This document shows positions 18,431-27,589 of a stretch of DNA of 64,000 nucleotides, in pieces. The translations under genes and the position numbers were made by a program. The DNA is from Alcanivorax sp. 1008. GTDB lineage: Bacteria > Pseudomonadota > Gammaproteobacteria > Pseudomonadales > Alcanivoracaceae. Where the stretch lies: contig NZ_JAFMPS010000006.1 of NCBI RefSeq assembly GCF_020667895.1, positions 1 to 64,000 of the forward strand, read 5' to 3'. Every line of letters starts with the position of its first letter. The first letter of the stretch is position 1. Under the pieces are notes generated by a model, which was not told where the DNA came from, ran no database searches, and saw nothing but the letters and a program-made list of their open reading frames with translations.

Positions 18431-18772
18431 ATGAGTGAGTTACCCAATTGCCCGAAATGTGGCAGCGAATACGCCTATGAAGATGGCGTCATGTTGGTCT
18501 GTCCGGAATGCGCCCACGAGTGGTCGAAGGACACAGAGCTAGAGTCCCAGGATGATGCTCCGGTGATTAAGGATGCCAATGGCACGGTACTGGCTGACGG
18601 CGATACCGTCACCGTGATCAAGGATCTGAAACTGAAAGGTTCGTCCCTGGTTGTAAAGGTCGGCACCAAGGTAAAGAACATCCGCCTGGTTGACGGTGAT
18701 CACGACATCGATTGCAAGGTCGATGGCATCGGAGCCATGAAGCTGAAGTCCGAATTCGTCAAGAAGGTTTGA
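18431..18772 (+). CDS. yjdM: YjdM/PhnA-family zinc-ribbon protein
   Basis: A 113-residue protein with an N-terminal zinc ribbon (CPKC...CPEC within residues 6-29). The C-terminal PhnA/YjdM beta domain contains [20 protein letters not shown] and [20 protein letters not shown]. The name PhnA is historical; the E. coli protein is not proven to be a phosphonoacetate hydrolase. The start follows a CGGAGATGCC site. It is a single gene, convergent with the lipoprotein at 18813. Confidence 0.92.
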
Positions 18773-18812
18773 TGGCAGGGGCCATCGGCGCAGGGGCTGG
18801 TAATCTGGCTCC

Positions 18813-19457
18813 TTACTCTCCCTGTTCCGCAATCCAGCGCAGAAACTCGCGGCGTTCTTCTGCTGTCGCATTACGCCAGCTTGCCTTGAGTAAATCGCTA
18901 TGGCTCAGCCCTTCTGCGGCGGGTGCCACCGAGTTATACAGCGGTGCAGGCTGTGCCGTTGGCACGCTTAGAAACCCCTGACTGAGCATCATGCCGCTGG
19001 CTTCTGTGGGGCGGCGCTGGCCAGTGGACAGATCAACGCTGTAACCGCTGAACTGCTTTGCCATCTGCTTTGCCGCCTCAACATCCGCCGGCACATCGAA
19101 AGCCAGACGGTGGCGCTCGCCTGCCTGACCGGTGACACGAAACAGCACCGGATCTGACTTGACCACGTCATGCTCGTTGTCCGACAGCTCGAACAGGTTT
19201 TTGTAATAGGCAGTGATGCGGTAGTCACCGGGCTGTAATTGCAGGGTGCGATCGCCAAAACCGAATAGTTTGTTGATGCCTTCCAGTCGACGATCATTGA
19301 TGGTGACGATTTCCAGTTCCACTGGCACGTCGATAAGTAGCAGCTGTTGAGGCGGCAGCTCGCTGCCCTCGTAAAGCTTGATCACCGGGCTTTGGGCGCA
19401 GGCGCTGAGCAGGGCGAACAGTGTGATTGCTGTTAGACGCATTGCAGTCAGGTGCAT
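18813..19457 (-). CDS. Putative lipoprotein of unknown function
   Basis: A 214-residue protein with a lipobox (LFALLSAC, Cys about residue 20). The start MHLTAMRLTAITLF has a GAGG site 6 bases upstream; a second ATG lies five codons later. The mature part contains a repeated LQPGDYRITAYYKN-type beta segment and a charged C-terminus (TAEERREFLRWIAEQGE). The PEGA-like wording of the beta segment suggests an envelope-facing sandwich. I do not recognise the family. Confidence 0.6.
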   Translation of the reverse strand: MHLTAMRLTAITLFALLSACAQSPVIKLYEGSELPPQQLLLIDVPVELEIVTINDRRLEGINKLFGFGDRTLQLQPGDYRITAYYKNLFELSDNEHDVVKSDPVLFRVTGQAGERHRLAFDVPADVEAAKQMAKQFSGYSVDLSTGQRRPTEASGMMLSQGFLSVPTAQPAPLYNSVAPAAEGLSHSDLLKASWRNATAEERREFLRWIAEQGE

Positions 19458-19543
19458 GGCATACCTCGTTTGGCCGGGCAAATCAGGAGCGACAGCTTGG
19501 CCCGCTATGATGACATTTATGTGTCAGTGGCTGTTGGCTTGAT

Positions 19544-19831
19544 TTAGTAGGAGCCAGGGCGCAGACGGCGTATTTGCGTTTCAGACTCCTCCGCCGCTGC
19601 ATCACAGGTCTGTTGACAGTCCTGCATTGTTTCAAATGGCACTGTGCCGTCACAGCCTCCCCAGATAAAGGCCTTGCAGGTGCCGCTTTGCGGGTCAAAC
19701 CAGTAACGCTCAATGGCTGCTCGACAGCGTCCTGATTCGGGCTTTAGCTGGCATTGTTCAGGCAATCTTTCCTCGCTGGTCTGGCAGCCGGCCAGTGCCA
19801 GTAGTGCTGCTGCAAAAAACGCATAGCGCAT
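19544..19831 (-). CDS. Kunitz/BPTI-domain lipoprotein
   Basis: A 95-residue protein. A lipoprotein signal (MRYAFFAAALLALAGC, Cys16) is followed by one Kunitz-type inhibitor domain. Its six cysteines are spaced 9, 16, 8, 12 and 4 residues apart, against 9, 16, 8, 13 and 4 in BPTI. Signature residues FIWGGC and the GRCRA turn are present. The residue after the second cysteine, the P1 position, is Arg, which predicts inhibition of trypsin-like serine proteases. A GAGGG site precedes the ATG. It starts 4 bases after the metallo-beta-lactamase-fold gene and is cotranscribed with it. Kunitz domains are mainly animal proteins, so a bacterial surface copy is unusual. Confidence 0.85.
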   Translation of the reverse strand: MRYAFFAAALLALAGCQTSEERLPEQCQLKPESGRCRAAIERYWFDPQSGTCKAFIWGGCDGTVPFETMQDCQQTCDAAAEESETQIRRLRPGSY

Positions 19832-19835
19832 GGGG

Positions 19836-20477
19836 TCACCCTCGATGATCGCTGACAAATGGATTGCTGCGTCGCTCCTCGCCAAAGGTCGACATTGGAC
19901 CATGGCCGGGGATAAAGGCAACGTCATCACCCAGCGGAAACAGTTTTTCCCGAATAGAGCTGACCAGCTCGGCATGGTTGCCGCGGGGAAAATCGCTGCG
20001 CCCGATGGAGCCGGCAAACAGTACGTCGCCAACCACAGCGAGGCGTGACTGCGGCTCAACAAACACCACATGACCGGGAGTGTGGCCCGGACAATGCAGC
20101 ACATCCAGTTTGGTATTGCCAACGGTGACGGTATCGCCATGTTCCAGCCAGCGGGTCGGAACGAAGGTTTTTGCCGGTGGAAAACCAAACATTTGTGACT
20201 GCTGTGGCAGCATGTCAATCCAGAAGCTGTCTTCCTTTTGCGGGCCTTCGATGGGCAAGCTGAGGCGTTCGGCCAAGTCTGCCACGGCACCGGCATGATC
20301 AATATGCGCATGAGTGACCAGGATTTTCTCTACGGTGCCACCAATCTGCTGCAGGGCATCAACAATGCGCTCAATGTCGCCACCGGGATCGACCACCGCC
20401 AGATTGCCGGTTTGTTCGCATTGCAGTATCGAGCAGTTCTGCTCGAAAGCAGTCACCGGCAGGATTGCGTATTTCAT
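19836..20477 (-). CDS. Metallo-beta-lactamase-fold hydrolase (YcbL / glyoxalase II-like)
   Basis: A 213-residue single-domain enzyme with the binuclear metal motif THAHIDHAG (residues 55-63), further ligands His in HCPGHTPGH and Asp in VVGDVLFAG, and a terminal FIPGHGP. It matches the YcbL type II glyoxalase-like group, which hydrolyses thioesters such as S-lactoylglutathione; the true substrate is not visible. It is the first gene of a two-gene operon with the Kunitz lipoprotein. Confidence 0.88.
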   Translation of the reverse strand: MKYAILPVTAFEQNCSILQCEQTGNLAVVDPGGDIERIVDALQQIGGTVEKILVTHAHIDHAGAVADLAERLSLPIEGPQKEDSFWIDMLPQQSQMFGFPPAKTFVPTRWLEHGDTVTVGNTKLDVLHCPGHTPGHVVFVEPQSRLAVVGDVLFAGSIGRSDFPRGNHAELVSSIREKLFPLGDDVAFIPGHGPMSTFGEERRSNPFVSDHRG

Positions 20478-20512
20478 TCACAGGTCCGCGTCATCAAACG
20501 AGCCGGCAGTAT

Positions 20513-20542
20513 AGCAAAAAGGCCCCTTGCGGGGCCTTTGCT
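20513..20542 (-). terminator. Terminator after the P450 gene
   Basis: The hairpin AAAGGCCCC / GGGGCCTTT around TTGC carries a T-run on the minus strand. It ends P450 transcription 14 bases after its stop and insulates the divergently placed MBL gene start at 20477. Confidence 0.85.
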
Positions 20543-20556
20543 GTATGCAACTGTTG

Positions 20557-21927
20557 TTACAGGCGTTCTATGGTTACTGGCAGGCCGTCTTTTGGCATTG
20601 CCAGGGGCACCAGTTGATAAGGAGCTTCATAGCCCGGCCGCACTGATACCTTGTAAGTGCGCAGGAAGTGGAACAGGAAGATCTTTGACTGCAGTTCGGC
20701 GAAGTTCAGTCCAATGCACTTGTGATGGCCGCCACCGAAAGGCACCCATTGGTAGAAATGTTTCTTTTCTTCGGCGCGCTCAGGAGAGAAGCGCAGCGGA
20801 TCAAAGGTGTAAGGGTTGCTCCAGTACTCCTCCATATAGTGAGTATGCAGCGGGACAATGCTGACCAGAGTATTTTTGGGGATTTTGTAGCCCTTAAACT
20901 CGGTGTCTTCGATGGCGCGGCGTGGAATGGTCGGCAGCGGTGGATACATGCGCAGGGCTTCCTTGAATACCCAGGTGGCGCTGTCCATTTTGTCGAGGTC
21001 TTCGTAATCAAGATGTTCCTTACCCAGTGCATTGAACTCCGCGCGCAAGCGCTCTTGCCATTCCGGGTTTCTTGCCAGTGCGTGGATGATCGAGCTGAGC
21101 GTGCTGGTGGTGGTGTCGTGAGCAGCAAATAGCAGGAAGATCATGTGGTTCATGATGTCTTCATCGCTCAGTGTTAGCTCACCTTCCTCGTCCACTGCCC
21201 GGCATAGCTCAGAGAAAAAGTCAGTGCCATTGCCAGTTCGTTTTTGCGGAATCAGGTCGGTCATAAACTTTTCAAGAAAGCGTCGGCCTTTCATTCCCCG
21301 ATACCAGATGGTGCCTGGGATTTCGACGCGCAGTACGGCCAGAGAGGCATCCACCTCCGCCACGAAGGCTTCGTTGACCTGCTGTGCTTCCGGGCCCATT
21401 TTCAAGCCCAGGAATGTACCCGCGCCGACGTCCAGTAACAGCGATTTGATCGCTTCAAAGAAGCTGAACTCTTTGCCCTGCGGCCAGTTCTGGATGCCAC
21501 TGGCGATATGCGGGTTCATGCTGGTCATGTAGCTGGTCAGGGCCGGCTTCTTGAAGGCCTGCTGCAGCAGGCGGCGATGAAGCTTGTGGTCGGTAAAGTC
21601 GCGCATCATCAGGCCGTTGGTAAACAGCTTTTCCAACATAGGGTTCCAAGCGGCTCGGCTGGAAAACACATGGGCCTGATCGCGCAGGACAAATTCGTTG
21701 GCTTCCGGGCCAAGCACGGTCAGGCCGCGCTGGAAGAAGATGCTGCCCTTGAACACCGGCCCGTATTCGGCGGCGCCCCGGTTCACCAGGCCTTGAAAGT
21801 CGCGCAGGAACTCGAAGGTCTGGCCGAACAGCGGCAGGCCGTACTTACCCGGAATGTGGTCGAGCTTGCGCTGCGGGAAACGGGGCAGGTGAGCGGCCTT
21901 CTGCTGGGCTGATTGCATGGTGTTCAC
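20557..21927 (-). CDS. Cytochrome P450
   Basis: A 456-residue soluble P450. The heme loop FGGGHHKCIGLNFAE has the thiolate ligand Cys404. The oxygen-activating I-helix reads FAAHDTTTSTL near 270, and the K-helix ExxR is KEALR near 327. It resembles the CYP120/CYP26/CYP51-like branch that takes sterols, retinoids or other isoprenoids more than CYP153 alkane hydroxylases; that is a judgement by eye. A GTG start at 21927 is favoured by GAGGA 8 bases upstream; an ATG follows three codons later. No ferredoxin or reductase gene is adjacent. Confidence 0.9.
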   Translation of the reverse strand: MNTMQSAQQKAAHLPRFPQRKLDHIPGKYGLPLFGQTFEFLRDFQGLVNRGAAEYGPVFKGSIFFQRGLTVLGPEANEFVLRDQAHVFSSRAAWNPMLEKLFTNGLMMRDFTDHKLHRRLLQQAFKKPALTSYMTSMNPHIASGIQNWPQGKEFSFFEAIKSLLLDVGAGTFLGLKMGPEAQQVNEAFVAEVDASLAVLRVEIPGTIWYRGMKGRRFLEKFMTDLIPQKRTGNGTDFFSELCRAVDEEGELTLSDEDIMNHMIFLLFAAHDTTTSTLSSIIHALARNPEWQERLRAEFNALGKEHLDYEDLDKMDSATWVFKEALRMYPPLPTIPRRAIEDTEFKGYKIPKNTLVSIVPLHTHYMEEYWSNPYTFDPLRFSPERAEEKKHFYQWVPFGGGHHKCIGLNFAELQSKIFLFHFLRTYKVSVRPGYEAPYQLVPLAMPKDGLPVTIERL

Positions 21928-26011: not shown

Positions 26012-26863
26012 TTACTCCATGATACAAACATTCGAAACGCAAGAGTCTCTATAATAAAGACCACATAAAGTCGTACTAGTACCTGGGTTGGTTATCAGCC
26101 ACTTTTGATACGCGTATTCACTTTTAAGGGTATCTAACACCTCTTCATCGACTGCCTGAATTGAATAAGCTTTGGCCTGAAAATTACAAAAATCTTCATT
26201 TATATCTATATTAAATGTCCTGCAATCAGCGTAGCTCTGACAAGATTGCACGCTTGCATCTATCAGGTTATGAGCTTCGTTCTTTATTCGGCCCATTTCA
26301 CTCCTAGGGTGAGGTTGTGAAGTCCCCGATGTTAAGTCAATTTTTACACTAACAATTGTATGATCTGTACGGAAGTAATTGGCACACGCCGCCTCAAAAT
26401 ATAAAGTAGCTCTATTCTCCTCAAAAACGATCTCGCCAGTTGTCTCTAGAGGTCGTACCTCCCCGCATGTTTCACAGCTCCAGCCTGGCTCCCTTGCGTT
26501 GAAAAATAAATTTCCATCTGGATCTATTTCTCCAAAAACTGATCCTGAAGTCCCAGTGTTTAGCTCGACAGCGTTTCCTGAAATGCCGAGAATTGCTTTA
26601 CCGCCCCCTCCGCACGAATAGATAGACCGCCAATAACCAGAGTAATATTCATCATAGTGCTTGCTAAGCGGGTTAGGTAAAAAACCAAAACCTAGCAGAA
26701 GCCCAACAGGCTGCAAAATAATAGAAGCGCCACCATTCTGAATCGAATCGTTGCTCTCGCTTCCCCCGCCACAAGAAGCCAGATTTGTTGCTAAAAAAAT
26801 GGTGAAAATAGTTATAAGTGGTTTTTTCAAAATTTTTCCTAGCCTACTTGGTCTTGCCCGCAA
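26012..26863 (-). CDS. AT-rich hypothetical lipoprotein at the edge of array 1
   Basis: A 283-residue protein whose signal (LITIFTIFLATNLASC) gives a lipobox cysteine at about residue 31. The mature part is rich in Gly and Cys (CGGGG, CETCG, CQSYADC, and a C-terminal cluster LCGLYYRDSC). Disulfides and an envelope location are likely. Codon use is visibly AT-richer than the flanking core genes. The first 11 codons overlap DNA resembling a degenerate attC half, so a TTG start near 26830 behind AGGAAAA is possible. I see no attC after its stop, so its status as a cassette is uncertain. Confidence 0.6.
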   Translation of the reverse strand: MRARPSRLGKILKKPLITIFTIFLATNLASCGGGSESNDSIQNGGASIILQPVGLLLGFGFLPNPLSKHYDEYYSGYWRSIYSCGGGGKAILGISGNAVELNTGTSGSVFGEIDPDGNLFFNAREPGWSCETCGEVRPLETTGEIVFEENRATLYFEAACANYFRTDHTIVSVKIDLTSGTSQPHPRSEMGRIKNEAHNLIDASVQSCQSYADCRTFNIDINEDFCNFQAKAYSIQAVDEEVLDTLKSEYAYQKWLITNPGTSTTLCGLYYRDSCVSNVCIME

Positions 26864-26883
26864 AAAGTGACGGCGGAAATTTA
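26849..26883 (-). repeat. attC half left of the IS3 element
   Basis: The bases GCAAAAAGTGACGGCGGAAA match the internal part of the two full 105-base attC sites (GCACAAAAGATGACAGCGGAAA at 30046-30150 and its copy at 59607-59711). The other half of the site lies beyond IS3 (27996-28016) and ends beyond IS110 (29223-29229). The R' half seems to be deleted towards the lipoprotein gene. Confidence 0.6.
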
Positions 26884-26917
26884 TGATCTTCCCCTGATAA
26901 AATGGACACGCTTCTTT

Positions 26918-27589
26918 TCACGCAGCCATTCTCTCGAATTCCATTGGGCTCAGATAGCCCAAGGCCGAGTGCAGCCTGCTTAGGTTGTAAAATTGGTTGA
27001 TGTATCCGGATAGCGCCAGTCGTAGCTCCGTTTCATTTCCAAACTCCTCTCCGTGGATTAGCTCCGCCTTCAGGCTGTGGAAGAATGACTCCATGTGTCC
27101 GTTGTCTGTGCAACGGCCAGGTCGATTCATACTACAACGAATGCCGTGACGCTCAAGCTTATTCTGTAGTATATGTGCGCCACTATCTGGCGACCCTGAT
27201 ACAGGTCAGGTCCGCAACCCACTGCTGATCCACCGCCGTCGGCGAACCGGCATCCACCCTCAGGTTCTGATGGCGGGCAAAGAACTTCTCTAGGCCGAGA
27301 ATCCTCCGGTACAGCGTTGCCGCCCGACCCACCAGGCCTGCATCCCGCATAATACACTCCACACGTTTCTTGCCGACCCGGATACCTTGCCGGGCCAATA
27401 CCTTATGCACCCGCGGGCTGCCGTAGCGCCCATCGCTTTTCTGATGAGCCCGCTCAATGCGCCGGGAAAGCCAGCGATCTTCAAGCGCTCGCGCACTCGC
27501 AGGACGCTTTAGCCACGCATAGTAGCCACTCCGGGAAACCCCGAGCCATGTACACAGGTATATGACGCCTAGTTCTCATCCGTGGACTT
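26918..27589 (-). pseudogene. IS3-family orfB transposase, internal deletion
   Basis: The N-terminal part reads (in the -1 frame relative to orfA) from YLCTWLGVSRSGYYAW through DGRYGSPRVHKVLARQGIRV to WVADLTCIRVA. It then runs straight into a different frame encoding DSGAHILQNKLERHGIR and the C-terminal SFFHSLKAELIH...LHSALGYLSP. About 75-80 residues of the DDE core are absent around 27175-27185, including the catalytic region after DLTYIR. The deletion also shifts frame, so this copy cannot make active transposase. Confidence 0.88.

Follow-up and report, generated by a model that had tools for sequence, protein, structure and literature searches.

Kunitz inhibitors are usually treated as tools of animals, and the report on a bacterial member of this family suggests borrowing from hosts. 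Bacterial Kunitz domains are already known: Pfam detects them, and a protein from Acinetobacter baumannii, F6W77_19310, has been reported. This protein contains five Kunitz domains and is described as a secreted exotoxin, for which the authors raise transfer from host animals (PMC11511053). Its domains with Arg at P1 prolonged clotting, and one was an in vitro inhibitor of factors Xa and XIa (PMC11511053). The other relevant system is ecotin, a dimeric inhibitor of the periplasm that acts on a broad range of targets (PMC9904509), which shields Pseudomonas aeruginosa from neutrophil elastase and is mostly found in bacteria without proteases of the inhibited class (PMC5893882).

The Kunitz protein described here is encoded in the window, that is, the entire 64,000-nucleotide stretch of Alcanivorax sp. 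1008 DNA that was analysed (Table 1). The gene starts with ATG at 19831, its stop codon ends at 19544 on the minus strand, and its 95 codons specify the protein MRYAFFAAALLALAGCQTSEERLPEQCQLKPESGRCRAAIERYWFDPQSGTCKAFIWGGCDGTVPFETMQDCQQTCDAAAEESETQIRRLRPGSY. A profile search of the whole source genome retrieved this gene as the sole Kunitz match. Only 4 nt separate the end of the gene for the metallo-beta-lactamase (MBL)-fold hydrolase from the Kunitz gene start, and this spacing, together with the GAGGG located before the MBL stop codon, makes it probable that the two genes are co-transcribed or coupled; a promoter and terminator scan of positions 18700-20700 found no sigma-70-like promoter. 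The hydrolase has no evident functional tie to the Kunitz gene. Elsewhere in the window (26012-27130, minus strand), a TTG-start open reading frame (ORF) encodes a lipoprotein-like protein of 283 aa with several cysteines, and beside it lies an ORF resembling the end of an IS3-type transposase.

Table 1. The Kunitz lipoprotein gene, its functional elements and its syntenic neighbours (window positions)
Feature	Position	Strand	Basis
Kunitz/BPTI lipoprotein gene, 95 aa	19544..19831	-	ORF and PF00014 match; single copy in genome
Kunitz domain, residues 27-76, short C38-C51 loop CDGTVPFETMQDC	19604..19753	-	Pfam coordinates, AlphaFold core, BPTI fold
P1 residue Arg37 (BPTI Lys15 position)	19721..19723	-	Alignment to BPTI-type chains; K/R in 36/36 six-Cys family members
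Lipobox L13-A14-G15-C16, Cys16 lipidation, +2 Gln	19784..19795	-	Sequence; lipobox Cys conserved in family
Shine-Dalgarno-like GAGGG	19839..19843	-	Sequence; 7 nt upstream of Kunitz gene, just before MBL gene stop codon
Upstream neighbour, MBL-fold (GloB-like) hydrolase, syntenic anchor	19836..20477	-	PF00753 (3.5e-33) and synteny
Downstream neighbour, DUF2057 lipoprotein-like protein, syntenic anchor	18813..19436	-	PF09829 (6.1e-20); synteny at 24 loci and empty sites

Residues 27-76 match PF00014 with an E-value of 1.6e-15 and 57.5 bits which, against the Pfam cut-off of 21, is far above chance. No NCBIfam model covers the protein, and the ecotin model PF03974 is absent both among its Pfam matches and from the whole source genome. 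The six Kunitz cysteines and the FIWGGC core that a sequence-only reading of this DNA had pointed out are all present, and the arginine which that reading assigned to P1 is confirmed as Arg37, a position where K/R is conserved in the family. The P1' residue is Ala38, and the combination of a basic P1 with a small P1' is that of Kunitz-type trypsin inhibitors (MEROPS I2). The BPTI spacing is retained for C5-C14, C14-C30, C30-C38 and C51-C55, whereas the C38-C51 segment is one residue shorter than that of animal-type Kunitz domains with Asn43 and contains VPF instead. The lipoprotein signal recognized in the same reading likewise stands: the signal peptide, MRYAFFAAALLALAGC, ends in the cysteine of the lipobox LAGC, as in bacterial lipoproteins, and this cysteine, Cys16, is kept among the Alcanivoracaceae members read, the LPAM_1 (Pfam) match being 13.7 bits, under the cut-off of 20. 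The Gln at +2 predicts an outer membrane location, where such a lipoprotein may be oriented to the periplasm instead of the surface; the surface anchoring proposed in the sequence-only reading is thus one of two possible orientations.

An AlphaFold model, one of the checks proposed along with the sequence-only reading, was built on an alignment of 61 sequences. The pLDDT is 88-90 across the Kunitz domain and 75.2 on average with the floppy ends included; only two of the five models exceed 70. In Foldseek, BPTI-type chains match the prediction with probability 1.00, a TM-score of about 0.8 (of target) and an rmsd of mostly 1.3-1.9 Å, and in VIA-align, the superposition covers 57 residues with Z 8.9 and an rmsd of 1.6 Å. 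Thus, as far as prediction can tell, the domain does fold as Kunitz/BPTI. Among the nearest solved chains in the PDB are smCI, tick boophilin, TFPI, bikunin and BPTI; boophilin, TFPI and BPTI are proven inhibitors. In addition, two viral predicted structures from BFVD match the model. Dendrotoxin-like chains fit about equally well in both Foldseek and VIA-align, some venom Kunitz peptides act on ion channels, and the fold alone is no proof of inhibition. The protein might then be a Kunitz-fold binding module devoid of protease inhibition, for example, an adhesin or an envelope-structure protein, an alternative that is weighed below against the conservation of the reactive loop.

The survey of relatives proposed in the same reading turned up many. 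By profile search, the Kunitz gene is represented, with one match each, in 38 of the 46 Alcanivoracaceae genomes and in 35 of the 41 genomes of good quality. Beyond the family, matches are sporadic: 2 genomes in the order sample, one of which contains a degenerate frame with stops that was left out of the gene count (L034 in G122), 3 in the class and 1 in the phylum. A recurrent gene order is found across the family, P450, MBL hydrolase, [MscS-like], Kunitz, [112-aa membrane protein] and DUF2057, and in six genomes without the Kunitz gene, the same neighbours are adjacent, with Kunitz missing between them. On an aconitase tree, employed as a species-tree proxy for 44 genomes, the Kunitz state changes three times. 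The picture is that of an old, vertically inherited gene that was lost a few times. The searched plasmid and phage collections contain no Kunitz match and hence give no sign of a mobile carrier. In G003 (3,120,143 bp), which carries neither Kunitz nor ecotin, the neighbours flank a short open frame (L170, 6701-6830, plus strand) that resembles a leftover Kunitz signal peptide whose lipobox Cys has become Gly.

The distribution of ecotin in the family is complementary to that of the Kunitz gene: 38 of the 46 genomes carry Kunitz only, five ecotin only (PF03974 in G020, G021, G031, G032 and G033, all without Kunitz), three neither (G003, G034 and G001, the last one 64% complete), and none both (Fisher p 4e-5, treating as independent genomes that are related). 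Four of the ecotin carriers (G020, G021, G031 and G032) form one clade in the aconitase tree, with support 100/100, and G033 is placed weakly, which implies one or two switch events. The ecotin locus (L176-L178) differs from the Kunitz locus. Outside the family, ecotin occurs in 0 of 35 Kunitz genomes, a count that is uninformative given the general scarcity of ecotin, which is present in 18 of the 294 genomes from the order. The simplest reading of the pattern in Alcanivoracaceae is that Kunitz would be a functional replacement of ecotin.

The five intact non-family matches from the unbiased profile searches (L033 and L035-L038) also have a short C38-C51 loop, with Pro-Phe/Tyr at its centre. 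The 60 listed PDB chains, which read as animal proteins and engineered variants thereof, are one residue longer in the aligned stretch and lack the short VPF loop. A scan of 84,980 species genomes for the pattern WGGCxGxVPF, which by design selects for the signature itself, yields 215 loci, and the best 80 of these come from Bacteroidota, Neomarinimicrobiota, Desulfobacterota, Campylobacterota, Spirochaetota, Myxococcota, Patescibacteria, archaea and others. In a small tree of Kunitz domains, which has too few columns for the inner branches and is used here for the animal-prokaryote split alone, seven animal domains are separated from all prokaryotic ones with support 96. The Alcanivoracaceae domain belongs to a widespread prokaryotic subfamily, so that the statement of the sequence-only reading that Kunitz inhibitors are mainly animal proteins is true of the described members and does not extend to this domain. 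A lipoprotein of a Methanophagales archaeon (L105, and also L096) combines one Kunitz domain with Arg at P1 and six Kazal inhibitor domains, and such a fusion speaks for protease inhibition as the likely trade of the subfamily.

Several other architectures are found among the short-loop proteins. A Saprospiraceae secreted protein of 378 aa (L100, 8001-8150 and flanks) consists of six tandem short-loop Kunitz domains with, in order, K, E, K, E, K and R at P1. Acidic P1 residues (Glu/Asp) are present in 17 of the best 80 of the 215 loci (for example, L084, L092, L101, L104, L138 and L153), mostly from Bacteroidota, Neomarinimicrobiota and Woesearchaeota, which suggests that these domains may have targets other than trypsin-like proteases. 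In Syntrophaceae metagenome-assembled genomes (MAGs) and an alphaproteobacterial MAG (L087, L089 and L122), Kunitz forms a fusion with a secreted protein that matches DUF2330 weakly.

The best-known Kunitz domains come from animals and, in the order outside the family, only two genomes matched, one of them degenerate; these facts might call to mind contamination or a gene recently acquired from an animal by horizontal transfer. Such an origin is highly improbable in view of the gene neighbourhood shared across the family, the lipobox and bacterial context, the short VPF loop that the listed solved chains lack, the animal-prokaryote split, and the deep divergence under purifying selection. We reject contamination and animal transfer given the conserved neighbourhood, the synteny of the empty sites and the tree.

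The Kunitz gene is under purifying selection, with dN/dS values of 0.00-0.38 (median about 0.08) in 15 close pairs. The 36 six-cysteine members of the family show no variation in the cysteines, W35, GGC and VPF, and several exposed positions vary freely. The P1 residue in these members is R in 23 and K in 13, P1' is A in 35 and G in 1, and P2' is A or S. In contrast, among the 60 non-family loci within the best 80 of 215, P1 is K/R in 35, acidic in 17 and F, L, Q or N in 8. A basic P1 in 36 of 36 family members against 35 of 60 outside indicates that this residue is a kept choice rather than a by-product of the fold.

In two genomes from two genera, G025 and G044, Cys14 and Cys38, which are disulfide partners in BPTI, are both replaced (by G and S, and by G and G, respectively), and the remaining four cysteines are kept; the loss of Cys14 alone or of Cys38 alone was not seen among the members read. 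The four-cysteine loci lie at about 8019-8171 of L062 and 7980-8132 of L059, both on the minus strand. Of the predicted disulfide pattern 1-6, 2-4, 3-5, the 2-4 bridge (C14-C38) is backed by these two double losses, and the other two bridges we infer from the model. In an analysis of Kunitz sequences, the 14-38 bridge was missing mainly in nematodes (PMC6436896). The four-cysteine members retain Arg at P1 in G025 and have Thr in G044. The latter substitution, where the 14-38 cysteines are lost, would be compatible with a binding module that inhibits no protease. Nevertheless, the basic P1 in all the six-cysteine members, the arginine retained in the four-cysteine protein of G025, the Ala/Gly at P1', the ecotin exclusivity and the archaeal Kunitz-Kazal fusion argue against such a module, which we regard as improbable.

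Accepting some uncertainty, we favour as the probable explanation that the protein is an outer-membrane lipoprotein that acts as a canonical inhibitor on trypsin-like S1A proteases, most likely foreign ones, and fills the role of ecotin. The Kunitz domain would act as a standard-mechanism, substrate-like inhibitor, in which the rigid loop around Cys14-Arg(P1)-Ala(P1') fits the active site of trypsin-like (S1A, Asp189-pocket) serine proteases, which would be blocked tightly and reversibly. The lipid tether would place this inhibitor on the outer membrane so that envelope proteins are shielded from trypsin-like proteases arriving from outside, potentially from competitors, predators or decaying animal matter, a role that would parallel that of ecotin in other proteobacteria. 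The inhibition, the outer-membrane location and the foreign origin of the target are all inferred from the features described above.

The source genome encodes a secreted S1A protease in a 574-aa open frame, with a trypsin-type pocket and Asp (Asp189) before ACFGDSGGP, and therefore, the target could be internal. Under this alternative, the mechanism of inhibition is the same, and the targets are the bacterium's own secreted trypsin-like S1A proteases, either in the periplasm or at the surface, the protein serving self-protection or regulation. Clear S1A matches are present in most Kunitz-positive genomes of the family, whereas proteases of the inhibited class are missing from most ecotin bearers (PMC5893882); furthermore, G034, which has neither inhibitor, has an HtrA-type protein as its best trypsin-family match. 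However, G043 (99% complete) and G045, in which the best trypsin-family match is an HtrA-type protein with the active site NPGNSGG, still keep a basic-P1 Kunitz protein, G003 has S1A matches yet no inhibitor, and an S1A gene does not recur in the conserved Kunitz neighbourhood. The sequence-only reading had named both roles, defence against host or predator proteases and control of the bacterium's own surface proteases, and the two are only partly separable. The ecotin exclusivity and the two genomes with an HtrA-type best match lean toward foreign targets; we consider endogenous targets less likely, albeit a serious alternative.

Alcanivoracaceae are free-living marine oil degraders. Nearly all members of the family carry Kunitz, and the few without it often carry ecotin, a pattern suggesting that the need to block trypsin-like proteases has been maintained over a long time in this group. 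More tentatively, and with slightly less than even confidence, we propose that the lipid-anchored Kunitz protein is a core envelope shield of a free-living marine family, an ecotin replacement drawn from an old prokaryotic subfamily; if so, attack by trypsin-class proteases would exert steady selection away from animal hosts. In this family of oil degraders, a distinct prokaryotic subfamily is nearly universal, vertically inherited and mutually exclusive with ecotin, and accordingly, the purpose of ecotin-type inhibitors in environmental bacteria becomes testable in non-pathogenic, culturable strains with a one-residue P1 mutant. The natural P1 variants (Arg, Lys, Glu, Asp, Phe and Leu) and the four-cysteine domains should be useful for structure-function work. 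In the literature, of which our coverage is incomplete, we found no description of a near-universal lipid-anchored basic-P1 Kunitz protein in Alcanivoracaceae, nor of the Kunitz-ecotin exclusivity or the short-loop prokaryotic subfamily.

Compared with the known systems, the Alcanivoracaceae protein shares with ecotin (MEROPS I11, PF03974) the predicted role of an envelope inhibitor of trypsin-family proteases, and the two alternate in the family, but they are unrelated in sequence and fold and occupy different loci. F6W77_19310, compared here by its description, is likewise a Kunitz protein in a gammaproteobacterial genome but has five domains. With the animal Kunitz/BPTI inhibitors (PF00014, MEROPS I2; smCI, boophilin, TFPI and BPTI), the protein has in common the six cysteines, the fold, the position of the reactive loop, the basic P1, the small P1' and the GGC core; it differs from them in being a single lipid-anchored domain in a bacterial neighbourhood, in the C38-C51 segment shortened by one residue, in V-P-F replacing the Asn43 region and in Trp instead of Tyr35. 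The prokaryotic short-loop Kunitz proteins (215 loci) share WGGCxGxVPF with it, and many of them are lipoproteins, but their P1 residue is often Glu, Asp, Phe or Leu, and some contain several Kunitz domains or are fusions with DUF2330-like, Kazal or other domains.
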